A stretch of 64,000 bases of DNA, taken from positions 17,600-81,599 of IMG/VR virus record IMGVR_UViG_3300042400_001600, one strand, 5' to 3'. The DNA is from a virus. Shown here one piece after another: positions 4,537 to 51,047 of this stretch. The position numbers and the translations under genes are program-made. Each line of letters begins with the position of its first letter. Position 1 is the stretch's first letter. The notes under the pieces are model-generated. The model made no database searches. It saw only the letters and a program-made list of their open reading frames with translations, and was not told where the DNA came from.

Positions 4537-6317
4537 TATCTCAGCTCCTCCCGGAAGGTGATGGTCGAAGGCTGCAGCAACAGGGTGATATTCCTGGAGC
4601 CCGCCGTGGCAAATGTCTCACTGCCCGTGCCGAGCACCGGATCCACAAATGGCGCGGCCATCACCAGCCCTGCGGCGGAACCGGCAAAGACGGAGGGCGC
4701 GGCGCGGCGGTCAGCGATGGCCGCAGCCAAATCCTCCACTGGCGTGGATGCAGTCGCCGGTAGCACGTAGTTGGCAGCGCTCCATTGCAGGGATCCGGCA
4801 ATGGAAATTTCCCGCACATCCTGGGCTCCAGCATAAAGCATGGCGTCTCCGATCTTCGCATCCGAATACACGTCCGGGTAGGAGAGACCGCGCAGGTAAT
4901 TGTAAATCTCGGTCCTGGCGGCATCCAGGGTCATGGTCATGCCTGCGCGCTTGGTGTAGACGACCTCAAACCGCGAAAGCACGATCGGGATGAAAGGACG
5001 AACCAGGGCCGAAAAATTGACCGGCGCGACGTCCGGGTTGTCGAGATGCTGGGCGACCGGCTGCAGCAAAGGGTCGTGCACGTAGGTGATTTTGAAATTG
5101 GCATACTGGGAGCCGTCGGCCTCCGTGTTCAGCGGAACCAAAGCAACACCAGTCGTCGGATTGCGAGGCATCGGGAACACCGCCCACAACTGCTCAAGGG
5201 AGGTGCCGGCGCAGGTCAGCAGCGGGGCCTTTACGCTGTCCGAGGACTGCGAGTAGATGTCGCACTCAACACCTGGCGTGATAATCACCGAGGGCGCGTC
5301 CACGCTGACAATGCTGCGCACGAGCGTCGGATTGCCCGAGACCAACAACGGGGTGATGAACTGGTTGACCGAGACCACCCCCTGGGTTGTGACGAAGGGA
5401 ACGCGAATGACTTGCGTGTCGTGGAAATCCCACGCCCTGGACTTGGCGTAAATGTCGGCCGCTGGTGCCGCAATGCCCAGCGCATTCACAGAAGCCCGCA
5501 GCATTTCCGCATCTCCGGGGAGCGTGACGCTGACGCCCCGCAGTTCAGGAAACTCCCGCTTCAGGTAATTGACGGATGCATTGCGGGTGACCAGCGCGCT
5601 GGCGGAGAACCGCTCGCGTGCTTGTGTGGCCAGAGTCGGTAGGGATGTCTCGGGACTGCCGGCCTCAAAATCCACGACGGCCGCGGCGCTCACCAATCCG
5701 GCGATGGTCATGTCGAGCGTTGCTGAATCGCCCTGGGTCACCAGCGCCCCCATGGTGCCGGTGACGTGAATGTCCACTGCGTAAACTCCGCCTCCGATGT
5801 CCACCAGGTTGAGGCTGTTGGTCGCGGGTGTGATGGCATTGCCGACGGGGCGAATCAGCATCTGTCCAGGAAACGGCAGCCGCATCGAGAACGTACCCGT
5901 TCCGATGGCAAATCGCAGTCGACGATCCAGGGTGACTTCCGCATCCGCATTGAACAGCAGCCGGATGACGCCGGTGCTCTTCAGTGAATCCTGCTCATAC
6001 ACGGCGAAGTTTTTCAGGAAGGCAGTGACGAACTCACAATTGAAGATCGTGCCGCTGGCGACCTGCTCGAAATCCAAATCGGACATGAACCGACCCATGG
6101 ATGTTTCAAGTGCGACGACGAGATGCGCAAACGGACCCAATACCAAATCCCCAATGACCGAGCCGGGGCGCATGTCCACATCCGGCCACCCGACGAGCAG
6201 GTAGCTCTGAATGCGGGCACGCGCGGAGGCCAGCGCCACGGTGGACATCTCACCCAATGCAGGGAAGTAGGTGGAAATCAAATCGGGTTGCCAGACGGAA
6301 GTGGGTATTGTCGCCAT
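4536..6317 (-). CDS. Baseplate wedge protein, baseplate J-like (T4 gp6 type)
   Basis: The protein has 593 residues. The N-terminal region carries the signature VDMRPGSVIGDLVLGPFAHL (about residues 45-65), typical of baseplate J and gp6 proteins. A beta-rich domain follows. A central segment (FEAGSPETSLPTLATQARER, then NASVNYLKREFPELRGVSV, about 215-265) is another family hallmark. The C-terminal third fits the dimer-forming part of gp6-like wedges. In the virion the family links the hub to the outer baseplate. Its neighbours are a gp25-like protein upstream and a probable further wedge downstream, the usual order in contractile tails. I would assign this role with good confidence from motifs and context. 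Confidence 0.85.
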   Translation of the reverse strand: MATIPTSVWQPDLISTYFPALGEMSTVALASARARIQSYLLVGWPDVDMRPGSVIGDLVLGPFAHLVVALETSMGRFMSDLDFEQVASGTIFNCEFVTAFLKNFAVYEQDSLKSTGVIRLLFNADAEVTLDRRLRFAIGTGTFSMRLPFPGQMLIRPVGNAITPATNSLNLVDIGGGVYAVDIHVTGTMGALVTQGDSATLDMTIAGLVSAAAVVDFEAGSPETSLPTLATQARERFSASALVTRNASVNYLKREFPELRGVSVTLPGDAEMLRASVNALGIAAPAADIYAKSRAWDFHDTQVIRVPFVTTQGVVSVNQFITPLLVSGNPTLVRSIVSVDAPSVIITPGVECDIYSQSSDSVKAPLLTCAGTSLEQLWAVFPMPRNPTTGVALVPLNTEADGSQYANFKITYVHDPLLQPVAQHLDNPDVAPVNFSALVRPFIPIVLSRFEVVYTKRAGMTMTLDAARTEIYNYLRGLSYPDVYSDAKIGDAMLYAGAQDVREISIAGSLQWSAANYVLPATASTPVEDLAAAIADRRAAPSVFAGSAAGLVMAAPFVDPVLGTGSETFATAGSRNITLLLQPSTITFREELR

Positions 6318-6320
6318 TGC

Positions 6321-6713
6321 TTAAAGTGAGGTTTGCGTGGCCGAGGTCACGCCGTTGCTGAATACCATGCTGGCCTGAAATTGCAGGCGGCCAACCTCAA
6401 TGACGCGGAGGTTCAATTGCAATGTTTCCAGGGTGCTCTGGCTTTGCGATGCGTATTCGTGATCGCGCAAAAATGTGACGGTGTCGAGAGCGGCAAAATT
6501 GGCGGCGTGCTGTGCGCTCTGGATGTCGTAGATGACACCACCTACCGCGGCCTTGAAAAGGTCGGTGCCTTTATCCGGAAAGATGGCGTCGCTGCCCTTG
6601 GATGTGCCGATATTGACCAGCGCGTTCTGCTGGATGCACTCCAGATCCGTCACCGCATCGCCGTTCAAGCTGATGGGTCCTTCCTGTGAGAATGTGAGTC
6701 GGAGTCCCCTCAT
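6321..6713 (-). CDS. Baseplate wedge protein, gp25/W-like
   Basis: The protein has 130 residues. The segment ALVNIGTSKGSDAIFPDKG (about 31-49) followed by TDLFKAAVGG corresponds to the central motif of gp25/GpW-like lysozyme-related wedge proteins, in which a long helix is followed by a Gly/Asp turn. The C-terminal half alternates beta-strands (LQLNLRVIEVGRLQFQASMVF). Known family members form the core of the wedge that triggers sheath contraction. It is directly followed by the J-like gene, as in T4-like and P2-like phages. The match is by motif shape rather than identity, so confidence is moderate. Confidence 0.65.
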   Translation of the reverse strand: MRGLRLTFSQEGPISLNGDAVTDLECIQQNALVNIGTSKGSDAIFPDKGTDLFKAAVGGVIYDIQSAQHAANFAALDTVTFLRDHEYASQSQSTLETLQLNLRVIEVGRLQFQASMVFSNGVTSATQTSL

Positions 6714-7060
6714 TTGAAACCGAAGATGTTGGCGATTCGGGAAGGCCGGTAGGTGCGGAGCATGGCATCATGATACCCGAGCGCGTAGAGCTTGCGACGC
6801 CGCACATTGGCATAATCCAAATCGCGCTTCAGTGCTGCCACGTGAATCAGCTTCAATTGCTCGACCGCGGCTTGCAGCGTGTCGGCATTCTGCGCCGTTT
6901 CATTCTGCGCCTCCACTTCCGACTGCAACTCTTTCAGATCGAAATCCGCGAAGGCCTCGCTGGCCATCGGCAGGCTTTCCTTCTGCTTGAGCACGTCCAG
7001 AATCCCCTGCATGGCAGGGAATCGTGAATCGCGATTGATGCGGGTGGTGTCGGCGAACAT
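6710..7060 (-). CDS. Helical hypothetical protein of the baseplate cluster
   Basis: The protein has 116 residues. The central region (FADFDLKELQSEVEAQNETA through LQAAVEQLKLIHVAALKR, about 40-85) should form a long coiled coil. The C-terminus is basic and aromatic (ALGYHDAMLRTYRPSRIANI). It overlaps the start of the gp25-like gene by 4 bases and follows the sigma-like gene by a few bases, so it is part of the baseplate operon. It may be a small structural or assembly protein. No family is recognised. Confidence 0.6.
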   Translation of the reverse strand: MFADTTRINRDSRFPAMQGILDVLKQKESLPMASEAFADFDLKELQSEVEAQNETAQNADTLQAAVEQLKLIHVAALKRDLDYANVRRRKLYALGYHDAMLRTYRPSRIANIFGFK

Positions 7061-7064
7061 CGGG

Positions 7065-7823
7065 TTAATTGACGGTTTGCAGTGCGGTCCTCAATTCCTC
7101 CAGCTTGGTGGCCAGCTTGGCCGACCGCCGGCTCAATTGCACCGGGGACAGGTTTAGCTTTCTAGCAATCTCATGCGGAAGCATCGGCTCGTGGGCTCCG
7201 CCATACCCGGTTTTCATCTCCAGAATCTTCCGGTCAATCAGATCGGATTCATGGTGCACGTAGTGCAGCGCCTCATCGGAATGATCGGACTGGGTGTCCG
7301 AGGGCATTGCCGCATTCTCCCCGAAGGAAGATTGCGAGGCCATCCGCCGGAAAGATTTGCGGATGCCTGCAATTCGGTGCACGGGCAATTTGGAATGGTC
7401 CGCCAACTCTTCGACGTCCGGATCGCGACCAAGGGAATCGCGCAGCTCATTCTCGGACTGCATCAGATGAAAGGCGTCCAATTGGATCTTCTCAGGCACA
7501 TGGACCGGATGCGCCAGGTTCATCCGGCGAAACCTACGCAGGGGCTGCAATTGCTGGGACACCCACGTGGGCAGCGCGGCCCCGTAGGTTGGGTCGTAGG
7601 ATTTGACGGCGCGGGATGTGAGGATGCGCGCCTGCAGAGTCAGGGCTGGATCCTGGGCGGCATTCATGGAACGCAACACCCCCTGAATGGTAGGTTCCAA
7701 ATGCTTCACCGTCGCAGACAGATTGGTGGGCGAGGCGTCAGCCATCCACGCAGCATGCGCAGCCATGTGGGGAGGCGGCTCCTTTAATGGCTTGTCATCT
7801 TCGCTGGGATTTGGCGCAGTCAC
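7065..7823 (-). CDS. Sigma-70-family-like protein encoded in the baseplate operon
   Basis: The protein has 252 residues. Residues about 58-100 (DPALTLQARILTSRAVKSYD, then GAALPTWVSQQL) resemble the end of sigma region 2, where sigma factors have A-x-x-x-[FY]-D-P-x-x-G followed by a W-x-x-Q-like helix. Residues 108-155 (HVPEKIQ, then ELRDSLGRDPDVEELADHS and a helix) resemble region 3. Residues 215-247 (MLPHEIARKLNLSPVQLSRR) resemble the region 4 helix-turn-helix. Region 1 and most of region 2.1 are missing or diverged. It starts with GTG and sits between small baseplate genes. It could direct phage transcription or be a structural protein derived from a sigma factor. The likeness is by motif order, so homology is probable but the activity is not established. 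Confidence 0.6.
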   Translation of the reverse strand: MTAPNPSEDDKPLKEPPPHMAAHAAWMADASPTNLSATVKHLEPTIQGVLRSMNAAQDPALTLQARILTSRAVKSYDPTYGAALPTWVSQQLQPLRRFRRMNLAHPVHVPEKIQLDAFHLMQSENELRDSLGRDPDVEELADHSKLPVHRIAGIRKSFRRMASQSSFGENAAMPSDTQSDHSDEALHYVHHESDLIDRKILEMKTGYGGAHEPMLPHEIARKLNLSPVQLSRRSAKLATKLEELRTALQTVN

Positions 7824-7838
7824 CAGAGGACGATACCA

Positions 7839-8021
7839 CTACTTGGGCTTTGCGGCAATCGCCGCCAGCCGCTGATATTTGCGAACGACCGCAGACATCT
7901 CACCGCCGCAATCTCCGCAACCAGCCCGGCTGCGCAATTTAAGTTCATGCAGTTCGAACTCCATGCGCTGCCGCAAATTGGCAGGCATCTGCAATCCGGG
8001 AATGTCAATTGGTTGCGGCAT
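7839..8021 (-). CDS. Small CxxC protein (60 aa)
   Basis: From the ATG at 8021 the product is 60 residues (MPQPIDIPGLQ...). An in-frame ATG at 8039 and a longer GTG-type extension to 8156 also exist. I prefer 8021 because it overlaps the upstream gene by only 17 bases, but no ribosome binding site decides it. The C-terminal half reads GCGDCGGEMSAVVRKYQRLA: a Cys pair followed by a basic helix. The same arrangement (CEGCELAHVYRKYALLAL) ends the upstream membrane protein, so the two may share a small module derived from a common ancestor. With only two visible cysteines, metal binding would need a partner or a dimer. Confidence 0.55.
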   Translation of the reverse strand: MPQPIDIPGLQMPANLRQRMEFELHELKLRSRAGCGDCGGEMSAVVRKYQRLAAIAAKPK

Positions 8022-8796
8022 TGGATTCGCGGACCGCATGTAGCGCCAGCAATGCGTACTTCCGATACACATGTGCCAGCTCGCAGCCTTCGCATTTCGC
8101 ATCTCCCTTTTTTGTCTCCGCCGCATACCTGGCGCGCAATTCCTCGCAGCCTGCAAACCAGCAGGGTGTGTCGTCTGAGAAAAACAGAGTCATCTTTTTA
8201 TACTCATCGGTGATGGAAGTTGGGTCGATGGTCGTGCCGTTGCCGGTCTTGATCATCCGCAATCCATAAGCCTGCTGGTATTGGGCGAGCCGGGCAGACG
8301 GCTTTTCCTCGATGTGCAATTCAGGCGCGGGCGGCTCAATTTCCTTTTCCGCCATTTCCGCCATTTGCGGCGGAGCTGCCGCAGCAACTTGATTGGGGGT
8401 GGGGGATTCCGGTTGCGACGTTGCACGATACAACCAGAGCCCCAGCCCGAGGCTGAGGCATGCCGCGGGCAGCAGTGGCAGCAATGGAATCCCCATCACC
8501 GCAAAAATGACCGCAGTCGGCAGGTAGAGCAGTGCGGTCCACCACGGCGATTGGCAAATGTGGCATAGCGCCCATTCTGAAAACCAGGCCGGCGCGTAAG
8601 CCAGCAGCCAGAATTGCCAATCCTTTCGGGTCTGGGTGTGCCGCACACCATACATGTGCGAGTCGGTGATAGCAGCGGCGGCTTTGCACAGCCGCAGCGG
8701 CATGGTGGTGTGATTCCACACGGTCAGGATGTAAAAGAGCAGGCAACCGAGACTGGACGCCAGCACCGCAATCAGCAGGAAGGTTTCAATATGCAT
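8005..8796 (-). CDS. Membrane protein with C-terminal CxxC module
   Basis: The protein has 263 residues. Hydrophobic segments at about 5-27, 68-80 and 90-125 suggest three or four membrane passes. A Pro/Ala/Glu-rich linker follows (about 130-170), then a soluble C-terminal part with CWFAGC and CEGCELAHVYRKYALLAL. The last segment resembles the end of the next gene product. It lies between the repeat-rich virion genes and the sigma-like gene. A membrane protein inside a baseplate operon is unexpected. It could be packaged as a pilot-type protein or act in the host membrane. No family is recognised. Confidence 0.6.
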   Translation of the reverse strand: MHIETFLLIAVLASSLGCLLFYILTVWNHTTMPLRLCKAAAAITDSHMYGVRHTQTRKDWQFWLLAYAPAWFSEWALCHICQSPWWTALLYLPTAVIFAVMGIPLLPLLPAACLSLGLGLWLYRATSQPESPTPNQVAAAAPPQMAEMAEKEIEPPAPELHIEEKPSARLAQYQQAYGLRMIKTGNGTTIDPTSITDEYKKMTLFFSDDTPCWFAGCEELRARYAAETKKGDAKCEGCELAHVYRKYALLALHAVRESNAATN

Positions 8797-8873
8797 GGAA
8801 GTTTTTTACCGCACGGCGCGCAATTGGCAACTCCGGATTCTAAATTCCCAATCCTGATGGCAGGAGAACATGG

Positions 8874-8892
8874 CTCTCGTGTTACACGAGAG
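8874..8892. repeat. Perfect inverted repeat around a stop codon
   Basis: CTCTCGTG (8874-8881) pairs with CACGAGAG (8885-8892). The 3-base loop is the TAA stop codon of the gene ending at 8882. No T-run follows on either strand, so it is not a standard terminator. It may act as an RNA 3' end stabiliser or slow release, which is speculative. Confidence 0.45.
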
Positions 8893-9457
8893 TGAAGTTT
8901 CCATCAGAGTCAATCGTGATGGTGCCAACGTGGGTCACGATCATTGAAACAGGGCCGATAACGAAATCACCAAGCACTGTTATTGCACTAGGGTTGATTA
9001 TTAGTGTCCGAGTTACGCCGTTGTAAGCCGCCGTTATCGTCAGCGAGTCTCCAGCTAGTCCGTTAGGAGAGTAGGGCGGAAAATTCCCAGACCACCAATC
9101 CGCTTTGAGATCTATTGTTGCGGTTGCTGCCCCCCACGCTCCATCTTCGTATGATTTTTCTACATCGACGGTGCATTTCTCATACCCGCCTGAATACGCT
9201 GTCTCGTAGGGATTCCAAGTTAAGTAACCAGCACTGTTTCCGTAAGCATACCAACCCAAGGAAGTGCCCAAGAACGTGGTTTCTGTAAATAAATCCGCAC
9301 CGTGACCGGGACTGCCGGGACTGCCGGGACTGCCGGCGGAACCAGTCCATGTGTAGCGAATCTCCATCTTCGGGCAGTTCTTTAGCAGAGAGTTGCCTGA
9401 GCAATTCGTCAAAAGGGATGTCCCGGCACAATTCGTCAGTAGCTTTGCTAGGGGCAT
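8882..9457 (-). CDS. Hypothetical tail-associated protein with short N-terminal repeats
   Basis: The protein has 191 residues. The first 30 contain three copies of a 9-residue unit (LLTNCAGTS, LLTNCSGNS, LLKNCPKM). A short collagen-like run GSPGSPGSPG follows near residue 45, encoded by perfect 9-base DNA repeats. The remaining 140 residues are beta-rich with many Gly, Tyr and Trp residues (SLGWYAYGNSAGYLTWNPY) and resemble a small receptor-binding or decoration domain. It follows the 996-residue repeat protein with almost no gap, so both may belong to one appendage. No enzyme motif is seen. Function is inferred from composition and position only. Confidence 0.6.
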   Translation of the reverse strand: MPLAKLLTNCAGTSLLTNCSGNSLLKNCPKMEIRYTWTGSAGSPGSPGSPGHGADLFTETTFLGTSLGWYAYGNSAGYLTWNPYETAYSGGYEKCTVDVEKSYEDGAWGAATATIDLKADWWSGNFPPYSPNGLAGDSLTITAAYNGVTRTLIINPSAITVLGDFVIGPVSMIVTHVGTITIDSDGNFTLV

Positions 9458-9460
9458 GTC

Positions 9461-12451
9461 TTATGGGCATGTTGCGGGAGAGCTGGTCATCGTCGTGACC
9501 ATATCTCTCCATTCGGGCGAGGCAGCCACCGAAGCGGCCACAGTCACCGTTTTGTATTTCCCCTGCAGCTTTCCGCCCGACAACCGCAAATCCACGAGCA
9601 CATCCACGGTGACATCCGCTTCACAGCTGGTGTTGGCCAAGAGAAAATCCGAGGCCAGCGTGTCGGCCTCCGCTACAGTGTCGGCCTTGAAGGTGCCGGC
9701 GGGAATTTTGGTCAATCCGACACGGTGGCTATTTGAGAATACACCGTAGCCGAGGTAGATCGGGGTGCAGGCAGCGGGCGACTGCTCCGTATTGCCTGCG
9801 CTGGCGGCATTCGCTTCGCAGATGGTGTTGGCCTCGATGAAGTCGGTGGCCATTTTATCGGCGGCGGTTTTCGTAGAGGCCTTGAAGGTGTTCTTGGGGA
9901 CGTTCATCATCCCGACACTGTGACGACCTTCCCCGCAATCGCCGGCTACATATTCATCATTACCCACCAATCCCAAATCAAACTCATTCCCGAAATTAAA
10001 ACAATCCGGTATCCCATAGGCCACGGCGTAGGCTGTGGATGATGCGGCCTTGATTGATATATCGCTGATGAAAGCACCTGCGGGCACATGTCCGATGGCC
10101 GATATTCCCAGCCCGACGGAGATGGGAGCGCCCAGTGCATTGCCTGGCACCCACGGCATTTGCGCGGGGGCGCCGCAAGTCACGCGCACGTCCACGTTCG
10201 ACCAAAAACAATTCAAGGAATTCAGACCCAGCGTAAGCGCCGCCTGATCCGCGTCACGCTGGCTGTGCCAGTCCAGGATCGTATCCGCTTCCACCTGCAC
10301 AGGATTTCCCACAGCGCCCATAGACTGCGCATCCACGGCGACCTTTGGTGAGCTGCCGTCTTTCGGGGTCATGGACCCGGTGCCGTATGTGATTGCGATC
10401 CGATCACCTGTGTCGCTGTATCCCCCGCCACGGAATTCATCGGCGGGAGAGTCCCCACAGAGAACCGTCATCCGTCGGTTCATGTAAAAGCACAGCAATT
10501 GGGACATGCCGTAAGCCTGAGTCTCGGCGTCGACCTCGGCTTGGGAGTTCAGGGAGGTAAACTGCCCCGCTGGAATTACCAAGGGGGCGGAATCCAAACC
10601 AAGCGAGTTCGGATGCACGTGGGGCATCCCCTTGTCCTGCGAGCAGGTAAATGAGCGTGCTGCGTTCTGGAAGCTGCAAGCCAGGGTGGAAATACCGAAC
10701 GCCGCGGCCTGCGCATTCGCAAAGGCCTTTTCCCTATCCGTCTCCCCAGGTCGGAACGTGGGCGGCACATCCGCCACGGACACGACAAAAGTACCGACGG
10801 GAACGATGAACACGCCCGACAAATCCTCCGCCCCTGCGGCAACCATCCCGGATGGGCAGTGCAGGGTCTGTGCATCGTTGCCGTATTTGCAGTCGTTGGT
10901 GGGAATTGCAGCAGGCACCACCAGAGCGCTTCCGGCCGTCATCTCCACCACCGAGGCGTCCGTGTCGCAGTAGGTGTTGGCCGCCAGGCCCAGCGTGGCA
11001 TCTGAGGACCAGGCCGAGGTGACCATCGCCGCGGGGATGGGCAATGGGATGACACCCTCCCGCACCTGCTGGGCAATTCCCTCCGGCACGCAGGTCGGAG
11101 CGATGTCCTGGTTGCAGTACATGCAGTTCAATTGCGCCAGCGCAGCATCCATGGCCTGCTGGTCTGCGTCCACCTGGGACACCTCGGAGTAGTAAGATCC
11201 GGCCGCCATTTGAAACTGGATGCCTGGCGATTTGTCCGAGGGATCCAAAAGCACGGTGGCTCCTGGATTACGCGGATCCGGCACGGATTGAACGGGGCAC
11301 TGTACGACAATCTCGGAATTGGTCCATCGGCATTGGAGCAGGGACATGGCCAACGCATGGGCCAATGCATTTGCGTCCGCGGTGGAAGTCGTGGAGGTCA
11401 GGTATCCTTGCGGAACCTCAACGGAATTGCCGGGGATTCCCAAAGTCAAATCGCTGACAATGGTGTCGTCTGTGCCTGGCTTTCCGCTCGCGCTGCAGCT
11501 CACCTTGACGAACTCATTGATGGCGAAACAGGAAAGCTGCGAGAGACCCAGCGCGCGGGCTTGCTGATCAGCGTCTGCGGCGGAATCCGAGGACAGGACC
11601 CGACCAGCCGGCACGGTGATTATCCCAACTCGCATCTGGTCGAGTGCAGGCCACGGCGTAGCATCCACCGGAACTTCCTCCCCAAACCCAGCATCCAGAC
11701 ACGTGACGGTCTGCTCCGTGTTCGGATACACGCACACCATGGCAGAAAAAGCGGCAGCCAAGGCCTGCGCATTTGCCGTGTTCTGACTCTGCGTGGAGAA
11801 CGAGGAGCCTGCGGAAATGACGGAGGGATTGATGGCAACGTGGTCGGGATCTTCCGGCGTGCGATAGGCGCCCGCGGCACAATTGGTCTCCTGCCGTTCA
11901 TTGACCCATCCGCAAGTCAGGGTTGCGACCGCAATGGCGCGGGCCTGTGCATTGGCAGCGGCAAGGGCTGTCAGGGCTGCCGTCCGCGCAATGACCGCCT
12001 GCTCCAAGGCCAGGCGGAACGCGCCGGCGACGGCCTCCGCCGTGGATTGCGTGAGAATTGTGGTAACGTCCAGCGGATTGAGCGTGGCGATGAATGCCAG
12101 TTGCGACGCTGAGATTCCCGCAAATGAATGCCAGGAAATATCCCTGGCGATCTGCCCGGCATTTATCGTGACGGACTCACCCACCGGACCGGCCCCCTCC
12201 ACATCGGAGCAATTGACCGTGACGGCCGCGCTGGTGATATGAATCAGCGGGATGTCAGTGGAGATGTCTGTTGCGGTGACCGTGGCTCCGGGGGTGTCGA
12301 AAGCATCCGCGGCAATGGCAGGAGGTACGTCGCAATTCGATACGGGCCGCGTGGGTGGTGTGATGGCGGTCGCCGGAACTGCAGCCGGAACTGCGCACCC
12401 AGGATTCAGGTTGCGGCGCTTGGCCCTTTCGATGTCGCGTGGATCAGTCAT
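9461..12451 (-). CDS. Giant repeat protein with about 11 Cys-containing VPAG/ADADQA repeats
   Basis: The protein has 996 residues, nearly all tandem repeats of 70-95 residues. A unit has VPAGxF-xSxxSxADADxQA, then a helix, then SQLxCxxxNxxxxVxC. Clear copies include VPAGRVLSSDSAADADQQA, VPQGYLTSTTSTADANALA and AAGSYYSEVSQVDADQQA. The paired cysteines recur in most units. The VPAG-x-x-x-S-x-x-SQADADAQA core is reminiscent of DUF5977 repeats found in bacterial surface proteins. The repeat architecture and the place after the hub gene suggest an elongated tail appendage or adhesin. Regular Cys pairs suggest disulphides or metal sites once outside the cell. No peptidase or lysozyme motif is visible. 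Confidence 0.75.
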   Translation of the reverse strand: MTDPRDIERAKRRNLNPGCAVPAAVPATAITPPTRPVSNCDVPPAIAADAFDTPGATVTATDISTDIPLIHITSAAVTVNCSDVEGAGPVGESVTINAGQIARDISWHSFAGISASQLAFIATLNPLDVTTILTQSTAEAVAGAFRLALEQAVIARTAALTALAAANAQARAIAVATLTCGWVNERQETNCAAGAYRTPEDPDHVAINPSVISAGSSFSTQSQNTANAQALAAAFSAMVCVYPNTEQTVTCLDAGFGEEVPVDATPWPALDQMRVGIITVPAGRVLSSDSAADADQQARALGLSQLSCFAINEFVKVSCSASGKPGTDDTIVSDLTLGIPGNSVEVPQGYLTSTTSTADANALAHALAMSLLQCRWTNSEIVVQCPVQSVPDPRNPGATVLLDPSDKSPGIQFQMAAGSYYSEVSQVDADQQAMDAALAQLNCMYCNQDIAPTCVPEGIAQQVREGVIPLPIPAAMVTSAWSSDATLGLAANTYCDTDASVVEMTAGSALVVPAAIPTNDCKYGNDAQTLHCPSGMVAAGAEDLSGVFIVPVGTFVVSVADVPPTFRPGETDREKAFANAQAAAFGISTLACSFQNAARSFTCSQDKGMPHVHPNSLGLDSAPLVIPAGQFTSLNSQAEVDAETQAYGMSQLLCFYMNRRMTVLCGDSPADEFRGGGYSDTGDRIAITYGTGSMTPKDGSSPKVAVDAQSMGAVGNPVQVEADTILDWHSQRDADQAALTLGLNSLNCFWSNVDVRVTCGAPAQMPWVPGNALGAPISVGLGISAIGHVPAGAFISDISIKAASSTAYAVAYGIPDCFNFGNEFDLGLVGNDEYVAGDCGEGRHSVGMMNVPKNTFKASTKTAADKMATDFIEANTICEANAASAGNTEQSPAACTPIYLGYGVFSNSHRVGLTKIPAGTFKADTVAEADTLASDFLLANTSCEADVTVDVLVDLRLSGGKLQGKYKTVTVAASVAASPEWRDMVTTMTSSPATCP

Positions 12452-12453
12452 GG

Positions 12454-13971
12454 CTATTCTTTGGCGATCTCCGGTGGCTTCGGCAATGCATTAAATGGAG
12501 CGCCCTTGTTGGGCAGCACGAACCCCTCACATTCCACATGCGTGAACACGAGGCTGGTGGTGGCGTCGCCGGTTGCGGATTTCTCGCTGTCCTCACCCAC
12601 CACCACGGAATGCGCGATGTGTGCCAGGAAGCCAGTAAACATCTTCTTCTTGTTGCGGTCGGTCACAGCATATCGGTATCCGAGCTGCGCCCTAAAATCC
12701 AACGGAATGTCCAGGCTCAGCGTATCCCGTCCCAAGGCTATGTCCAAATACGCAAGCCGAGCCCACCACGCCAGGATGCTCCTCTGCGCCGTCTGCTGCT
12801 TATCCATGCTGTCTTTGCGCGGCTTGTGTTTTGTGCGCATGTATTCATTCGCATCCAACCCCATCGCGTTGGCCTCCTTGACCGCGTCATCCATATCCAA
12901 CGGACCGTAAATGGCAGGCAACCAGACGGGCAATGGGATTTGCTCGAATCGCCCGTTTGATTTTTCCGGCAGCGGATTCGGCCACGTAGCATACACCGGG
13001 GCCGTTGGCATTCCTTTATCCGACCCGGACTCCTTCACATTCTCCGTGCCCTGCCCGACGACCACCACGGCAGCCAGGGGCACCACATCGTAGGCCCCAA
13101 GCCTGGATGTGAAATGGGTCGCAGAAATAATACCGGGCGCAGTCTCTCCCATCACCGCGTCCTTTGAGATTAAACGCCCATAGGGTGCGTCTGTTCCCCC
13201 GACGTCGGGAATATAGAGCAGGTTAAACATTTCGCAGAGCGTCAGGATCTGCTGAAAGAAATCCCGTCCCTGCGTCAGAAACACCTGTCGGATGGTATCC
13301 TGAATCTTCTCATTTATGTCCTGCGTCATGTCCGGCATAAACGGCAGCTTGGTGGTTGCCGTGCTGTCGCTGAACAGACGCTGCCATTTGGTCTTGTGCT
13401 GCTCGTTGATTGCATGCATCTGATCCATAATCTTCGCGTCCAGCTTTGCCATTGTGACAGTCCGCGCGTTCGCCTTCTCAATCCATTTTTTGATCAGCCG
13501 GTCGAGCACCAGGCTGAACATCTCCGCCATGCTGGTCGCATGCAGCAGCTCATCGTCGTCCTTTGCCTCGTTGCCCTCCGTCCGGTAAATGTGGGTGCGC
13601 AGAGCCTGCAAATAGGCCGCATTCGTCGCCAGTGCCAGATGCACCTCAAATGAGCTTTTTGACGCTTCGTAAGCGGACGTCGTGAGCAGCCCGGCGGTAG
13701 TCAGATAATTCCGGGATCCAGAATCCTGATACACATTGACGGTGGTCAGGTCCGTGAACTTCTGGGTCTGATTCTGGGCGAGCCATTTGGTAATGTCGGG
13801 AGAACTCAGGTCCACCAGGTCGCCTGATCTGACTCCCTGCGGATGCACAGAAAGTGCCAACGACGGCATCTCATTGATCGTCATCGTCGTCTGCGCTCCG
13901 GATATGCGCAGCTTGATTCCGCCCACATCCCCGCTGACCTTTGGCTCCCTGAATGAGATATTACTGCTCAT
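12454..13971 (-). CDS. Putative baseplate hub / tail-plug protein
   Basis: The protein has 505 residues. The N-terminal third is beta-rich (GGIKLRISGAQTTMTINEMP). The middle is helical (LVLDRLIKKWIEKANARTVT). The last 100 residues read FRAQLGYRYAVTDRNKKKMF, then TGFLAHIAHSVVVG and ATTSLVFTHVECEGF. That ending, a strand with G-x-[LV]-x-x-I-x-H and then ATTxLxFTHxxCEG, is typical of hub proteins of the gp27/gpD class, which form the ring that holds the spike. Genomic order after the tape measure also fits. Sequence identity to any named family cannot be judged here. Confidence 0.6.
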   Translation of the reverse strand: MSSNISFREPKVSGDVGGIKLRISGAQTTMTINEMPSLALSVHPQGVRSGDLVDLSSPDITKWLAQNQTQKFTDLTTVNVYQDSGSRNYLTTAGLLTTSAYEASKSSFEVHLALATNAAYLQALRTHIYRTEGNEAKDDDELLHATSMAEMFSLVLDRLIKKWIEKANARTVTMAKLDAKIMDQMHAINEQHKTKWQRLFSDSTATTKLPFMPDMTQDINEKIQDTIRQVFLTQGRDFFQQILTLCEMFNLLYIPDVGGTDAPYGRLISKDAVMGETAPGIISATHFTSRLGAYDVVPLAAVVVVGQGTENVKESGSDKGMPTAPVYATWPNPLPEKSNGRFEQIPLPVWLPAIYGPLDMDDAVKEANAMGLDANEYMRTKHKPRKDSMDKQQTAQRSILAWWARLAYLDIALGRDTLSLDIPLDFRAQLGYRYAVTDRNKKKMFTGFLAHIAHSVVVGEDSEKSATGDATTSLVFTHVECEGFVLPNKGAPFNALPKPPEIAKE

Positions 13972-45000: not shown

Positions 45001-45174
45001 TCAGCGCTTGTATCCGAAAGTCACAGTCGCAGTGATCGCCAGTGCGGAGAGCCAGTAGCAGGCATCCGCCCATTTTCGGTGAAGGGCCCACCAGATGGCG
45101 GCCATGCAATACAGCGCCATGATGATGAAATTGAAAAGGCGCGGCTCGCCGAAAATGGCCTGGATGATTTTCAC
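45001..45174 (-). CDS. Small two-pass membrane protein (57 aa)
   Basis: A GTG at 45174 overlaps the TGA stop of the metallophosphoesterase gene (GTGA). The 57-residue product has two hydrophobic spans (FNFIIMALYCMAAIWWAL, ACYWLSALAITATVTFGY) joined by a basic turn. It resembles small holin-type or membrane-anchor proteins but lies far from the lysis cassette. A holin role is therefore only one option. Confidence 0.6.
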   Translation of the reverse strand: MKIIQAIFGEPRLFNFIIMALYCMAAIWWALHRKWADACYWLSALAITATVTFGYKR

Positions 45175-46217
45175 GCGCAGAAGACCGGCATGCGCTGCGC
45201 CACCATCCGCCTGGATGCGTCGAGCAGGAGGAATGTCTGCAGCGGCTCCTGGTAAGGGAAGCCGAAGCTCGCGGCGTACTCATCCCATCCTTTGAGCGAT
45301 CCGTTCATCGTCGTCCGGGTGTTTGGCTCCGAGTACTGATGGAAGTGCCCCATGATGTTGTGATGGGCCTTCCGGGTCTGGTCTTGCTTGGCCTCCCATT
45401 TGTTGAGCGAGATCGAGACACCACCCACGCCATCGTTGTATTTGACCTGATGCCCGTGGAAGCAGCGCAACCGCCAGTCCTTCAGCAAATCCACGTAATG
45501 CACATCTGCCTTGGGGATCTCCCATTGAATGTGATCCGCCTTGATGGAGCCGGCGAGTGCGGCATACACCATGGTCTCGTGTGAGGTTTCGAAATCGTTT
45601 TTGAATTGCATCTTTTTCGTCGTCCTTCCGTGATTGCCCCGCTGGCAGACGATGTGCAATTTCTTGATGCTCTTCTCCTGGGCCAGCATCCCGATGCATT
45701 GCGTGAGCAGTTCCACAGCGAACAACGATTCCTCCACCGGGCCCATGAAGTTCGTCTGCTCCAATTCAGGATGCAAATACCCAGTGACGAAATCCCCACC
45801 CAGCCACAGCACCATCGTGGAGGCGTCGTAGCTCTTCACGGTATGACGCTGCAGGCGGATAATGCTCTCCATGCAATGCACTGCGCGTTTGCGGCAAATG
45901 GCCGGCGAGTAGCTGTTGAGGCCGCGCACCTTGGCCTTGTCGATTTTCTCTGCCACATGCCAGTCGCTCAGGCCGACGAGGGACACACCGCGGCGCTCCT
46001 CCTGCTGGGACGAGGACGCTAGCAGTGGCTGGATGTTCTGAGGTTCCATGATGGCCAGCGCCTCATCGTATTTCTCCTGCCACAAATCCGCCTCGGTGCG
46101 TGCCCGCGCCACGCTTTTGCGCAAATCCGCAATTTGCACCTTGTTCCCCCGGAGCTGCTGCTCCAACCGGATTATTTCTTCTTCGTGCGGGGTTGGGGTG
46201 TGGATGCGTCTGGACAT
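45171..46217 (-). CDS. Calcineurin-like metallophosphoesterase
   Basis: The protein has 348 residues. An N-terminal coiled coil (EEEIIRLEQQLRGNKVQIAD, 12-55) precedes the phosphoesterase fold with GLSDWHVAE (D85, H87), WLGGDFVTG (D142), QRGNHGR (N195, H196), FHGH (H254, H256) and MGHFHQ (H291, H293). These are the metal-binding motifs of the calcineurin superfamily in the correct order. Phage members often lie near structural or replication genes, and their substrate is unknown. The upstream HTH gene overlaps its 5' end by 46 bases. Confidence 0.9.
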   Translation of the reverse strand: MSRRIHTPTPHEEEIIRLEQQLRGNKVQIADLRKSVARARTEADLWQEKYDEALAIMEPQNIQPLLASSSQQEERRGVSLVGLSDWHVAEKIDKAKVRGLNSYSPAICRKRAVHCMESIIRLQRHTVKSYDASTMVLWLGGDFVTGYLHPELEQTNFMGPVEESLFAVELLTQCIGMLAQEKSIKKLHIVCQRGNHGRTTKKMQFKNDFETSHETMVYAALAGSIKADHIQWEIPKADVHYVDLLKDWRLRCFHGHQVKYNDGVGGVSISLNKWEAKQDQTRKAHHNIMGHFHQYSEPNTRTTMNGSLKGWDEYAASFGFPYQEPLQTFLLLDASRRMVAQRMPVFCA

Positions 46218-46481: not shown

Positions 46482-47636
46482 TCAAAAACGACCGGTCAGC
46501 TGTGCTTTTGCTTCGGAATTGATCTCGGGGGCAAGACGCCAGCCTTTGTACTGTTTTGAGTACCCCACACAAAGTTGCCACACCGATTGAATGTGTAATT
46601 GATGTGCTTTCGCAAACTTAGTGACACCACACACCACATGTTCGCTTCCGGTAGGGTCGATGAGAATGTATGTCGGCACCGGATTCTCCGGAAGGGTCCA
46701 CCCTTTATGGACGTTGCTGTTGCCGAGCACCACCTCATTTAATCGTCCGGGCTGCAATCCGTGATTACGTGCAAAAGCGCACACATTTGTTCCTTCATAA
46801 ATGTTCCCTTCAAATAGAAGCCTGAATGGTGAATTGGGTTTTCGTCGTTGCGTCACTTTGGGACGCAGACCTCGCCCGTGTTTTTTAGGGCGTAGCGGAT
46901 GTGTGACCCTGTAATCGTCCAATTCCTGTCGTTCCTTCTTGAATCGCTCCCACTCGGGAGCTTCGCCAACGCGATGCCAGCCTTTGCATGAATGCCATTG
47001 CCCGTTAAGCACACGCCCAAGCCCCGCACGATCGAGTCCGTGCTCGCGACAAAACTGCGTTACGTTTTTACCACTGTAAACAACGCCATCTTTTTCCAAG
47101 GCAAAATCTTTTGAGTACAATTCCTTGTATCTCAGCTTTGCAGATTCCGTGCATGGTGGTTTCGATGCCTTGATGCGCGCTTTCACATCCGATGGTAGGG
47201 CGCGTAAGACCGCGGATATCTTCGATCTGGTAGCCTCCGAGTGCACAGCCCCAAGACGAGACTGCGCTTTCGGATTAGTGTTAAATCCCACCGCACGATC
47301 GTAGGATTTGAATTTATCCAAATACATTTGCTCCCTGGCTACTGTCTCATCCTTGCAGGTCAGCTCGATTACGTGAAAAGAAAATGCCTGAATCCCGTGT
47401 TTTACAAACGCTGCCTGCAAATAAGGGGTGTGGTGTTTCCCGAGAATCAGAGCGCTACGATGCTTACGGAAGCGATCACGCAATCCGCGCTTACCCGCTG
47501 CGCTCCCTAGATATAGCTTACCATTCGGTTTACAGAAAATTGCGTAAATGCCGCAGGATTCAGGCAGTGCGAGCTGCGACACCGCCGCGAGATCCATTGA
47601 GATTAACGCAGAGTCTATGAGTTCTTGTGTGTTCAA
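46482..47636 (-). CDS. GIY-YIG homing endonuclease, free-standing
   Basis: The protein has 384 residues. Residues 27-110 hold the GIY-YIG nuclease fold: CGIYAIFCKPNGKLYLGSA, then RDRFRKHRSAL with the catalytic Arg, and REQMYLDKF with the Glu. Three similar DNA-binding modules follow (REHGLDRAGLGRVLNGQWHS, ARNHGLQPGRLNEVVLGNSN, AKAHQLHIQSVWQLCVGYSK), each ending in KGW, as in NUMOD/IENR repeats. It overlaps the 3' end of the polymerase gene by 4 bases (ATGA). The base composition looks more AT-rich than around it, suggesting later arrival. Confidence 0.9.
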   Translation of the reverse strand: MNTQELIDSALISMDLAAVSQLALPESCGIYAIFCKPNGKLYLGSAAGKRGLRDRFRKHRSALILGKHHTPYLQAAFVKHGIQAFSFHVIELTCKDETVAREQMYLDKFKSYDRAVGFNTNPKAQSRLGAVHSEATRSKISAVLRALPSDVKARIKASKPPCTESAKLRYKELYSKDFALEKDGVVYSGKNVTQFCREHGLDRAGLGRVLNGQWHSCKGWHRVGEAPEWERFKKERQELDDYRVTHPLRPKKHGRGLRPKVTQRRKPNSPFRLLFEGNIYEGTNVCAFARNHGLQPGRLNEVVLGNSNVHKGWTLPENPVPTYILIDPTGSEHVVCGVTKFAKAHQLHIQSVWQLCVGYSKQYKGWRLAPEINSEAKAQLTGRF

Positions 47637-50600
47637 AATTTGCCAGTCTTCTCTACATCATTGGCAAAGTTTTTTCCTATTGCGAGTCTCGGGTATGGTG
47701 AAATATTCGAACTAAAATCGCTGTCCTCCCCTCGCATTGCCGACTCCGCCATGTTTTTTGCGACGTAGCTGCTGGTCAGTTTCGAGGCCCAGTCCGTTGA
47801 CGCACTTCCCGCCGTCCGCAGACGATCCATGTCCGGCTCAAATCCCGGCGCATCATTTGCCACCGCGACTTTGTCATACCCGCGGGAAGCCAGATGCTCC
47901 GCCATCCTCGGGGTCAATTTGGTTCCGATGGTGTAATGGAGGGCCGGGGCCTGCAAATACCGACCGACGCCCTGGCCTGGATGCACACGCTCCGAATCGG
48001 CCGGCGGCACGTAGGAGGCCGCCAGCTTGTTGTAGGAGACGGTGTCATCGGGCAGGTAGTCGCCCAGGCCTTCCGCATCCGTAATGCGCACATGGTCCAA
48101 TGCTCCGCGCGCCACCATCTCGGTGTGCTTCAAATCCGTCTTGATGCCGCTGTCATCGAGCAATTGCTTGAGACGGGTGGCGTAATAGCGGCGGCCCTCG
48201 CCCAATCCCCGCAGCCGGACAATGTCCCTGGGATCGACAATGCCCTCGCTCAAGGCGTCACCGGCCTCCAGCTTGTCGCCTGGCTTTACCAGCAGACCCA
48301 GGCCCTCGGGAATGTAGTGCTCATGGTCGCCCACGTAAGCGAACTTGCCTCCCTGCGGGGCATCCTTGATGGAATGCACGGTGCCTTCCAATTCGGACAC
48401 GGGGGCTTTGTCGGGGAAGGCTTCGGGGCTTTGGACGAATGCATTGATGGCGTTCATTCCCGAGAACTCCCTCTTTTTACCGGCGACTCCTGCGGTGTTT
48501 TTCACAATCAATCCGTTCTCCAAAACGAACAGCTCGTCCGGATGATCCACTGTGATGTCCCAGCAATGGTGGTTGCCGATCTCAGTAATTGATTCGCGCT
48601 TGGCGCGGTAAAATAGCTCGGGATTCCGCAATTCGTAATTTGCATTCTCCAGTAGGTCTTTTGTCCTTGGGCCTTTGCACCCCGGAATTGGAGGCAGCAT
48701 GCCTACCAGCTTCTGAATCTGATCTTGTCGTGTAATTGCAAATGCCCACGCATCATGTTTGTAGCTGCGAGTTCCCGCTTTTGCCGTGTTGGTGATTTCC
48801 GAAGTGTACACACAAAGACGAAGCTCCAACAGACGTCGCAAATCCTCTAACATCCCGCGACTCGTGGAGGCGAAGCTGATGAAAACATGGCCGGCTTTGT
48901 TTTTTCCAATGCTACCGTCCGTGGCAATAAATCCTGCGAGCAAAGCAGACACAGAGGCTTTATCCCAATACAAGGCCTGCACGGGCACCCGCTTCTCGTG
49001 GGCATACTTGTTCGCAATTCCCCACTCCAGCATCTTCACCTTCATTGGGTGCCGGGTAGCGGTCTTCACCATCTGCCCAGTCGTTGCGCTGCGGTCTCCC
49101 CACCCTTGAGTCGATGTGTGGACTATTGCGTAATCATGGCTGCGCTTTCTTTTCTTCAGTGCGAGTCCGGCAGTTGCCAGCGGGGTTTGCAAATCCGCAA
49201 TGAGCATTGGATCCGCACACGAAAAGCGAATGGACGCATCCGCATGATTTTCAGAATCCCAGCGAATACCGTCGCCGAGCAGTGCTCCACACAGGACAGC
49301 CAATGGTTCGTGCGTTTCCAGTGCCGCATCAATCTTACATTCTACAGGCAGCACTGCCGCAATGTTTTTATGGGGATAACCCGCAGGAAGTTTGCAGGCT
49401 AAATAATTTTCCGGACATCCGAAGCCGTATTTTCCTGCATATTTTTTGCGCAGATACTCACCCGTCGTTTTCTTATTGCTCAGCACGATGTGCGTGTCCG
49501 TGCACTCCAAGGTCAGCCGGCGTTTTGTCTGCCCTTGCTTGTAGATATAGCGCTGAACCGGCTGAATGCCTTGATCCCATACGTATTTCACTTTCACTGG
49601 GAAAGTGGCGCCTGTGATATCAGAACCCAGGACCCATTCGCCGGCTTTGATCTCCTGAATCGGCTTCACGGACAAATCGGCCATTCGCACCATGGTGCCT
49701 TCCTTGAGGCAATGTTTCACGTTCAGCGCAGATTGGGTAATCGGCTCGCCAATTGAGTTTGCGGCGGTGATGCCTGCCGTACGTCCAATACCATACAGGT
49801 GCCCACCATCCATTCCGCCCACGCTTTCCGATGCGATACCCTCCGGAGAGTCATCAGTGATTGGGCTGTGGGCAATGACGTAGGGCACCTTCTTGCGGCG
49901 CAACTCCGCCAGCACCGGCGTTGTGATCATGGTGCCGGCGCTGAAGCCTCCTGCGGGCTTGGCGAGCACTCGGTATTTGAGGCTGGGATCTTCAATGTCC
50001 AGATCCACGCCATTGTCCGAGCCGGTGCTTTTCCTGGTGGTATTGAGCGTGGAAAGCAGGGACGACAGTTGCTTGGAGAAGTCACCGCCGACGGCCGTGG
50101 CTTTTTTCGTCGAAATAACGGCACTACGCGCCCCGTAGGTGCTGGCCAGGAATTCCGCCGGACGCAATCCCTCCGCATGCGAGTGCGTCGCGTACATCTC
50201 AATTGGCGTACCATTCCCATCCTGGAATATCCCTGGTGCCGAAATCATCGAGTTCAATTGCGGCGCCTTGCCTCGGGCTCCGCTCAATACCGAGTAGGCA
50301 ATGTTGTTGCCGCGGCGCAGGCCCTCCCGCTGCGTCTCCCTGGTGACATGCTCATTGGTGTCCTGCCAGATCTTCATCCGCTTCGTGCGGAACTCGGCGT
50401 CGGTATTCGCGCCTTTCTTTGCTTGGGCAATTCGCGCCTCCATCCCTTTGAAGATGGAGTCCTTGTCGATGACAGGCTTGAGATCTTCCAGCGTCAGGGA
50501 TTCGCCCTGGTCGTAGCTGGCATTGCGCCCTACGTCCGCAATCTTCCCGATGATGCTGGAATACTCCTCGGGATGCTCACGCGCAGCACGGGCCAGCAAT

Positions 50601-50689
50601 TGGTTGAAGCCCTTGGCGTCGTAATTGCGGCCGTAGTCCCGCAGGCCGTGCGGGAGCTGGTGTTCGAGAAGGAGTCGAATGCCCTTCAA
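47633..50689 (-). CDS. RNA polymerase beta-prime C-terminal half with an in-frame LAGLIDADG intein
   Basis: The protein has 1018 residues, 613 of which are extein. The extein corresponds to the part of beta-prime after the DFDGD catalytic motif: VLSGARGKAPQLNSMIS (135-150), HAEGLRPAEFLASTYGARSA (171-190, matching EGL...ST.GAR of bacterial beta-prime), then AANSIGEPITQSALNVKH (309-326), the bridge-helix end and trigger loop. After the intein follow TAGVAGKKREFSG, KHTEMVARGALDHVRITDAE and LGDYLP, matching the C-terminal part. The Cys residues of the usual beta-prime zinc site are missing. The N-terminal half with DFDGD is not in this window. Beta-prime split in two genes is known from jumbo phages. 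The gene lies among virion genes. Confidence 0.9.
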   Translation of the reverse strand: MKGIRLLLEHQLPHGLRDYGRNYDAKGFNQLLARAAREHPEEYSSIIGKIADVGRNASYDQGESLTLEDLKPVIDKDSIFKGMEARIAQAKKGANTDAEFRTKRMKIWQDTNEHVTRETQREGLRRGNNIAYSVLSGARGKAPQLNSMISAPGIFQDGNGTPIEMYATHSHAEGLRPAEFLASTYGARSAVISTKKATAVGGDFSKQLSSLLSTLNTTRKSTGSDNGVDLDIEDPSLKYRVLAKPAGGFSAGTMITTPVLAELRRKKVPYVIAHSPITDDSPEGIASESVGGMDGGHLYGIGRTAGITAANSIGEPITQSALNVKHCLKEGTMVRMADLSVKPIQEIKAGEWVLGSDITGATFPVKVKYVWDQGIQPVQRYIYKQGQTKRRLTLECTDTHIVLSNKKTTGEYLRKKYAGKYGFGCPENYLACKLPAGYPHKNIAAVLPVECKIDAALETHEPLAVLCGALLGDGIRWDSENHADASIRFSCADPMLIADLQTPLATAGLALKKRKRSHDYAIVHTSTQGWGDRSATTGQMVKTATRHPMKVKMLEWGIANKYAHEKRVPVQALYWDKASVSALLAGFIATDGSIGKNKAGHVFISFASTSRGMLEDLRRLLELRLCVYTSEITNTAKAGTRSYKHDAWAFAITRQDQIQKLVGMLPPIPGCKGPRTKDLLENANYELRNPELFYRAKRESITEIGNHHCWDITVDHPDELFVLENGLIVKNTAGVAGKKREFSGMNAINAFVQSPEAFPDKAPVSELEGTVHSIKDAPQGGKFAYVGDHEHYIPEGLGLLVKPGDKLEAGDALSEGIVDPRDIVRLRGLGEGRRYYATRLKQLLDDSGIKTDLKHTEMVARGALDHVRITDAEGLGDYLPDDTVSYNKLAASYVPPADSERVHPGQGVGRYLQAPALHYTIGTKLTPRMAEHLASRGYDKVAVANDAPGFEPDMDRLRTAGSASTDWASKLTSSYVAKNMAESAMRGEDSDFSSNISPYPRLAIGKNFANDVEKTGKF
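48497..49711 (-). mobile_element. Intein with LAGLIDADG homing endonuclease inside the polymerase gene
   Basis: It spans residues C327 to N731 (405 residues). Block A begins CLKEGTMVRMADLSVKPIQE with the splice Cys. Block B is LECTDTHIVLS. The LAGLIDADG parts are LAVLCGALLGDG (463-474) and SALLAGFIATDGSIG (581-595). Blocks F and G are HHCWDITVDHPDELFVLENG and LIVKN, with Lys instead of His before the final Asn. The +1 residue is Thr732. Joining H326 to T732 restores NVKH-TAG, the trigger-loop sequence. Confidence 0.9.
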
Positions 50690-50699
50690 TTGGTCCTCC

Positions 50700-51047
50700 T
50701 TACCGGTTCACACCCCACCCGCTCTGAATTGCCACCGTGACCGTGCCACCGGTGGCATTATCCCGCTCGACGCGCACGTATGGGTAAAGGCCCGGGTCCA
50801 GGACGACGATGGCGCTGGTGGTGATGTCGGCTCCGATCTGTTGCCAGTTCTCGCTGGCAGAATCCAAATCCTGCAGGACGCTGACATACAGCTTCACGGT
50901 GGCTCCGGCGGTATTGATCACCTGGAACGTATTGAGGCCGAATTGATCCCGGCGAATCACGGAGCTGTACGGGGAGGCGGCCGCTGCTGCGGTGAGCAGC
51001 ATGACGATTGGGGAATTGTCGCTTTTGGGATCGAAGGTGAGTGTCAT
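50700..51047 (-). CDS. Small beta-rich virion protein (115 aa)
   Basis: The protein has 115 residues of alternating strands (SPYSSVIRRDQFGLNTFQVI, GATVKLYVSVLQDLDSASEN, GLYPYVRVERDNATGGTVTV). The final YVRV...GTVTVAIQSGW pattern is common in small phage surface domains. It is located directly before the polymerase gene. There is no membrane segment. The role is unknown and it may decorate the particle. Confidence 0.6.
   Translation of the reverse strand: MTLTFDPKSDNSPIVMLLTAAAAASPYSSVIRRDQFGLNTFQVINTAGATVKLYVSVLQDLDSASENWQQIGADITTSAIVVLDPGLYPYVRVERDNATGGTVTVAIQSGWGVNR

Follow-up and report, generated by a model that had tools for sequence, protein, structure and literature searches.

An intein directly after the predicted trigger-loop histidine of a phage RNA polymerase and related inteins at neighbouring insertion points

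What lengthens an RNA polymerase gene of a phage to 1018 codons, and why does the extra stretch lie in the trigger loop of the enzyme? The gene is found on the minus strand (47633..50689) of the window, the 64,000-nucleotide stretch analysed here, whose source record is a viral contig of 81,599 bases (IMG/VR record IMGVR_UViG_3300042400_001600). It has 1018 codons and a stop and starts with TTG. A likely ribosome-binding site, AAGGAGG (50695..50701, minus strand; read directly from the DNA), is separated from the TTG by five bases. In profile searches the ends of the protein matched RNA_pol_Rpb1_5 (5e-13) and the middle matched LAGLIDADG_3 (6e-12), while residues 5-889 matched the rpoC model TIGR02386 at 9e-43, which is below that model's cut-off. 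The homology spans the bridge helix and the trigger loop including the trigger-loop His, which identifies the product as the C-terminal part of a split beta' subunit (beta'-C).

The end of the polymerase gene overlaps by four bases with the TTG start of a GIY-YIG homing endonuclease gene (window 46482-47636, minus strand). The endonuclease gene adjoins another (45171-46217, minus strand) that matches a PHROG labelled exonuclease (1.5e-39). Elsewhere in the window, a Sigma-70 region 3 match (6.5e-6) at 7065-7823 (minus strand) indicates a possible phage sigma factor.

According to alignments with homologues and PDB chains, the precursor consists of an N-extein (residues 1-326; 49712..50689, minus strand) with the bridge helix and the N-terminal helix of the trigger loop, a 405-residue intein (C327-N731; 48497..49711, minus strand), and a C-extein (residues 732-1018; 47636..48496, minus strand) that begins with a Thr, the +1 nucleophile. 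We take the bridge helix to be approximately residues 177-212 of the precursor, with limits set by the E. coli numbers. A preliminary description of this DNA had placed an intein at 48497-49711, and the coordinates and motifs it named are exact: the minus strand gives 405 residues, CLKEGT...GLIVKN, with splicing blocks A, B, F, and G. It had also claimed that the insertion directly follows the trigger-loop His and that removing it restores a normal trigger loop. Both claims hold. The insert is preceded by ...ITQSALNVKH and followed by TAGVAGKK..., and the 613 residues that are left after its removal align without a gap across the junction to two uninterrupted phage homologues, Salmonella phage Arash gp216 (606 aa) and Vibrio phage D181_0271 (609 aa). 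With a slash at the junction, the window reads LNVKH/TAGVAG, Arash gp216 LGTKH/DAKAG, and D181_0271 LSTKH/DAKAG. The +1 residue is Asp, which is no nucleophile, in both homologues and Thr in the window. No paper on Salmonella phage Arash was found in the open-licence literature.

A profile of three beta'-C sequences matched 110 distinct PDB sequences at E<=1e-5. His326 (codon 49712..49714, minus strand) falls on H1242 of chain 5tjg_D, hand-counted on the printed alignment; the chain is presumably from T. aquaticus. His326 therefore corresponds to the trigger-loop His in beta' chains of solved structure, as the preliminary description had proposed. We take this residue to be H936 of E. coli, and the E. 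coli numbers used below are assumed offsets from this His or from the bridge-helix Ala. Across 110 rows of matches (L019-L054 and L206-L279, from overlapping scans in which some contigs were counted twice), the His is kept in all 106 whose single match runs over the position. In the remaining four (L038, L257, L260, L269) the match is split by inteins, and KH is present there too. Ser or Thr occupies the +1 position in 56 of the 106 rows. The pattern E-P-x-T-Q-[FLIMV]-T-[FLIMV]-x-T-F-H-C, which represents only the motif with a Cys start, had 0 matches among the cellular polymerases of genome_contigs.

The insert has the splicing residues of a class 1 intein: Cys at position 1, T-x-x-H in block B, a C-terminal Asn, and Thr at +1. 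It is an in-frame insertion without a counterpart in homologues of the host protein (the 606 and 609 aa proteins and 68 of 79 rows). Both LAGLIDADG places hold an acidic residue (D147 and D265 in intein numbering), and the second motif lies within the LAGLIDADG_3 match at residues 580-643 (48761..48952, minus strand). The Hint domain, whose detection had been suggested as a check, was recovered at the level of fold and narrowly missed by profile (8e-7; 29.4 bits, slightly below the Pfam cut-off of 29.7). The intein alone had no match at E<=0.01 among PDB sequences. An AlphaFold2 model built on five aligned inteins (mean pLDDT 69.3, pTM 0.57) was matched by Foldseek to PI-SceI (1vde, E 5.7e-17, TM-scores 0.46 and 0.44), and also to TliVMA (7qsu, 1.7e-12) and I-DmoI (7.6e-5). 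The predicted overall fold, Hint plus a two-motif LAGLIDADG part, resembles that of PI-SceI, the VMA1 intein. PI-SceI differs in its host protein, and over the structural match the identity is 14-17% with TM-scores of about 0.4-0.5. The splicing residues, the two LAGLIDADG motifs, and the PI-SceI-like fold together bear out the claim of an intein.

The 1018-residue protein is complete in four further IMG/VR contigs and covered from residue 68 to 1018 in a fifth, all at 100% identity. One of these, the sister contig G001, has 185,656 bases. The search turned up no contig of the window's own species that lacks the intein, which all five near-identical contigs carry. Chance or an assembly error was ruled out as the source of the insert: five contigs agree, and 12 other phages have 18 related inteins in this gene.

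With the window included, the family comprises 19 related inteins in the beta'-C of 13 phages (distinct contigs), all open and stop-free. Extein searches covered 41 loci and then 79 (from the best 80 of 147 relatives), the intein search covered 23, nine of which were read, and all searches together gave the 12 further carriers. Among the 79 loci from the best 80 of 147 relatives, 11 are split, five of which belong to the window's species, and 68 are uninterrupted. The inteins occupy nine insertion points, all within the bridge helix or the trigger loop, and a single protein carries up to three (L097 and L098 have three each). In the bridge helix they follow E. coli positions 783 (L270), 784 (L045, L097), 788 (L046, L028, L098, L257), and 796 (L098, L277). 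In the trigger loop they follow positions 923 (L046, L097), 927 (L100), 932 (L097, L098), 933 (L260, L269), and 936 (window, L038, L257). No insertions elsewhere in the beta'-C gene were seen in the match tables of both extein scans. The beta'-C frames L097:4395-11138 and L277:2099-6811 extend several hundred residues past the polymerase part, in what by eye is low-complexity sequence.

Each of the 13 other full-length members aligns with the window intein from end to end (28-45% identity). Five of the 19 are mini-inteins (138-151 residues), four of which match the window intein by their ends at E<=1e-5; the mini-intein of L098 at 788 does not. Cys1, the block B Thr and His, the block F Asp, and the final Asn are kept in all 19, and the +1 residue is always Thr or Ser. 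The penultimate residue, the block G His of other inteins, is His in none of the 19. In 16 it is Ser, paired with a His in block F. The window intein, L257 at 936, and L260 have Lys instead, and their block F place is Glu, Gln, and Glu, respectively. The preliminary description had noted the Lys of the window intein and suspected slow C-terminal cleavage. The residue is as described, but Lys alone does not predict slow cleavage, since about 5% of functional inteins have a residue other than His at this place (excerpt of PMC4031507). The paired exchange of Ser/His for Lys/Glu-Gln could alter C-terminal cleavage, though it does not speak for timing. Because of the Lys/Glu exchange and the Hint score slightly under the Pfam cut-off, splicing may be slow or partial.

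The rest of the polymerase is partly visible on the sister contig. A 637-residue frame contains the C-terminal part of beta (E 1.8e-55), and weaker beta matches were found at 107,323 (E 8e-8) and 103,220 (E 0.0015); none of them is above the rpoB cut-off. The N-terminal part of beta' lies in a 1131-residue frame that is interrupted by a 507-residue intein. This second polymerase intein (L014:6546-8066 on G001) stands in the Mg-binding loop between NLDFDGN and TMNAHV. The only two LAGLIDADG_3 matches on the 185,656 bases at E<=0.1 are the two polymerase inteins. The last residue of the second intein is Asp, and inteins ending in Asp are known (excerpt of PMC4031507). The preceding extein residue is Asn (codon AAT), so the spliced beta'-N product of G001 would read DFDGN. 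All 30 other loci read, L065 included, have DGD at the Mg-binding loop, and G001 alone has DGN. The second intein is known from one contig because the beta'-N query matched the sister contig only. No beta'-N partner with DxDxD was found on the window's 81,599-base record, which may be a fragment.

In G023, the phage of L038, a DFDGD-point intein is seemingly split over overlapping frames of L085 (minus strand, 4508-6610 and 6582-13868). By eye, its N part starts with Gln after DFDGD, and its C part has LAGLIDADG-like motifs and ends with SN before TVNIHV. It may be a naturally split intein, or the product of a frameshift or of faulty assembly. Inserts that look intein-like by eye also occur in beta-subunit genes of related phages (L085:8076-9323, minus strand; L090:51-4319; L091:6694-11079) and in a gene that resembles a cysteine protease (L091:2150-4165). 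Introns have been reported in a phage beta' N-terminal gene (excerpt of PMC12350094).

The window insert is very probably a class 1 intein with its own LAGLIDADG homing endonuclease, a selfish element that, judging by its residues, splices itself out to give a 613-residue beta'-C. The 1018-residue precursor would be made whole, Cys327 would begin an N-S acyl shift, Thr732 would take over the N-extein, and Asn731 would cyclise, leaving the exteins joined in a 613-residue subunit with an intact trigger loop. In mixed infections, related phages whose highly conserved trigger-loop DNA is empty would be cut there by the endonuclease, and the intein would then be copied into the cut site. A break at one or both ends without ligation, with beta' working as a further split protein, is very unlikely. 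Split beta' genes are known in jumbo phages (excerpt of PMC7598289) and were seen in the present contigs, and the C-terminal residues of the window intein are atypical. Mere cleavage, however, would not need the +1 Thr, which is retained along with the other splicing residues, and a break within the trigger loop would part its two helices.

Whether the element serves the phage was judged from its distribution. In a quick extein tree of 13 carriers and 15 intein-free rows chosen by hand, carriers are scattered among three clades: the tree needs 10 changes, whereas shuffled labels need 9.6 on average, and 379 of 500 shuffles gave a count as low. On this tree the carrier L038 and L020, which has no insert, are each other's nearest neighbours. 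The L038 DNA minus its insert is 78% identical to L020 over 1774 alignment columns and ungapped at the junction. This occupied/empty pair speaks for homing and loss, and together with the scatter of carriers it means that the element is dispensable to such phages. For the window intein, dispensability is argued from relatives, because every contig of its own species is occupied. The first endonuclease motif of the L038 intein has Asn in place of Asp, so this copy may no longer cut.

The same pair bears on the idea that the insert is a domain that stays in the trigger loop without splicing. The E. coli trigger loop holds SI3, an insertion a few residues further on, and so tolerates an insertion close to this place. 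A retained domain is nevertheless extremely improbable here: all 19 inteins keep the splicing residues, and the insert of L038 is absent from its near relative.

It is plausible that polymerase activity would need splicing, and the preliminary description went on to suggest that splicing could time transcription. A polymerase that stays inactive until a cue or a delay, with splicing setting the timing of phage transcription, would fit an insertion that adjoins the trigger-loop His, the Lys/Glu near the C-terminal cleavage with a similar pair in two relatives, and the second intein in the DFDGD loop of the sister contig. Stress responses have been reported for other inteins (excerpt of PMC6195587). 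Such regulation is unlikely all the same, and the suggested timing was not borne out: carriers are no less scattered on the extein tree than with shuffled labels, the carrier L038 has a close intein-free relative, and most loci among the best 80 of 147 relatives are uninterrupted. The intein is most likely a selfish element and not a regulator. It would survive because it sits at a conserved site from which an imprecise loss would be fatal to the polymerase.

Two terminase-like inteins (L102 and L104, labelled by eye), which were chosen by similarity and share 23-26% identity with the window intein, served as the outgroup in phylogenies of the inteins. In the 21-row tree the 19 beta'-C inteins are separated from this outgroup with a support of 100/100. 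The window intein clusters with L257 (936), L269 (933), and L260 (933) (99/94), and L038 (936) clusters with the 932 inteins (89/83). The canonical pattern of allelic inteins, in which the same point means one clade, is therefore absent for the three 936 inteins. The AU test rejected a single clade of the three (p 1.6e-5 with 21 rows, 4e-4 with 16 rows without the mini-inteins). The test did not reject a union of the window with L257 alone (p 0.14 and 0.24) or, in the first tree with its 15 rows and only two 936 inteins, a union of the window with L038 (p 0.17). The rejection of a single 936 clade thus arrived with the third 936 row. By identity the window intein is closer to L269, three residues away (45%), than to L257 (41%) or L038 (31.5%) at the same point.

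Other points show both patterns. The L046 intein at 788 pairs with that of L097 at 784 (95/97 with 21 rows, 100/99 with 16). On the other side, the 932 pair clusters by point (100/100), and the 923 inteins form one group that also takes in L100 at 927 (100/100). Seven point groups require 10 changes on the tree against a shuffled mean of 11.9, a count as low in 7 of 200 shuffles, so the insertion point does carry a tree signal. The pattern suggests local changes of site within lineages. Such a change could come about through a short duplication and deletion next to the insert.

A trigger-loop intein as such is not unheard of, a notion that the archaeal A'' site rules out. Split A'' matches were found in 12 of the 33 Methanococci genomes with a match (36 searched), in G065 over two frames. 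In the four genomes read, the site is GTQM/S...THN/TMRTFH, equivalent to E. coli 930/931. The A' subunit has a split match in one frame in 3 of 33 genomes, and in the two read the intein ends six residues before DFDGD. The Methanococci A'' inteins are presumably the Mja rPol A'' allele; Mja A', Mja A'', and Nph A'' are the earlier largest-subunit inteins (excerpt of PMC1635734). Like the window intein, the archaeal A'' intein interrupts the N-terminal helix of the trigger loop in a homologous subunit. It differs in its position six residues upstream (930/931 against 936/937), its Ser start, its His-Asn end, and its cellular host, and the two insertion points are not the same.

Comparable settings exist in other proteins. 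Prp8 inteins (seven sites) likewise interrupt an essential RNA-handling protein at many points near the active centre, and they are reported to group by site and to look independently acquired (excerpt of PMC6805012). The three phage 936 inteins, in contrast, do not form one clade, and some tree neighbours in beta'-C stand at points three or four residues apart, while the 932 pair groups by point. In mycobacteriophage TerL, another protein, inteins occupy several points of the catalytic domain, and two of these points are separated by a single residue (excerpt of PMC5050341). In crAss-like zeta phages RNA polymerase genes are broken too, also at DxDxD, and introns and inteins are common; these polymerase breaks are described as stops and frameshifts, whereas the window phage has clean in-frame inteins (excerpt of PMC7886860 for the crAss-like phages). 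Among the open-licence papers listed, no title or abstract start described trigger-loop or bridge-helix inteins of a phage polymerase. The literature that combines intein and trigger loop (including an excerpt of PMC2776397) held no title about a trigger-loop intein. A term search of PMC7598289, a review of jumbo-phage polymerases, found neither intein nor trigger loop, and excerpts of PMC12363816, PMC2814812, PMC4071816, PMC5784728, and PMC10643990 held nothing on this insertion point. What is new is the insertion point and the clustered intein family; the kind of setting is known.

The usual classification of inteins names the extein and a single fixed point. In this polymerase one family occupies nine points in two short catalytic elements, and some tree neighbours are inserted three or four residues from each other, so that natural pairs allow a direct test of how inteins change site. 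The set also amounts to a naturally occurring series of insertions along the bridge helix and the trigger loop, and its five mini-inteins and the Ser/His to Lys/Glu-Gln exchange are material for the study of splicing chemistry. For phage annotation, the family accounts for the excessive apparent length of some split polymerase genes in this clade. It is quite possible, if somewhat short of probable, that these inteins are specialised for the polymerase, shifting by a few codons among bridge-helix and trigger-loop points, and that the polymerase of the window phage needs two splicing reactions, one at the trigger-loop His and one in the DFDGD loop seen on the sister contig. If the reading with two splicing reactions is true, the enzyme would work only after both of its catalytic loops have been spliced.
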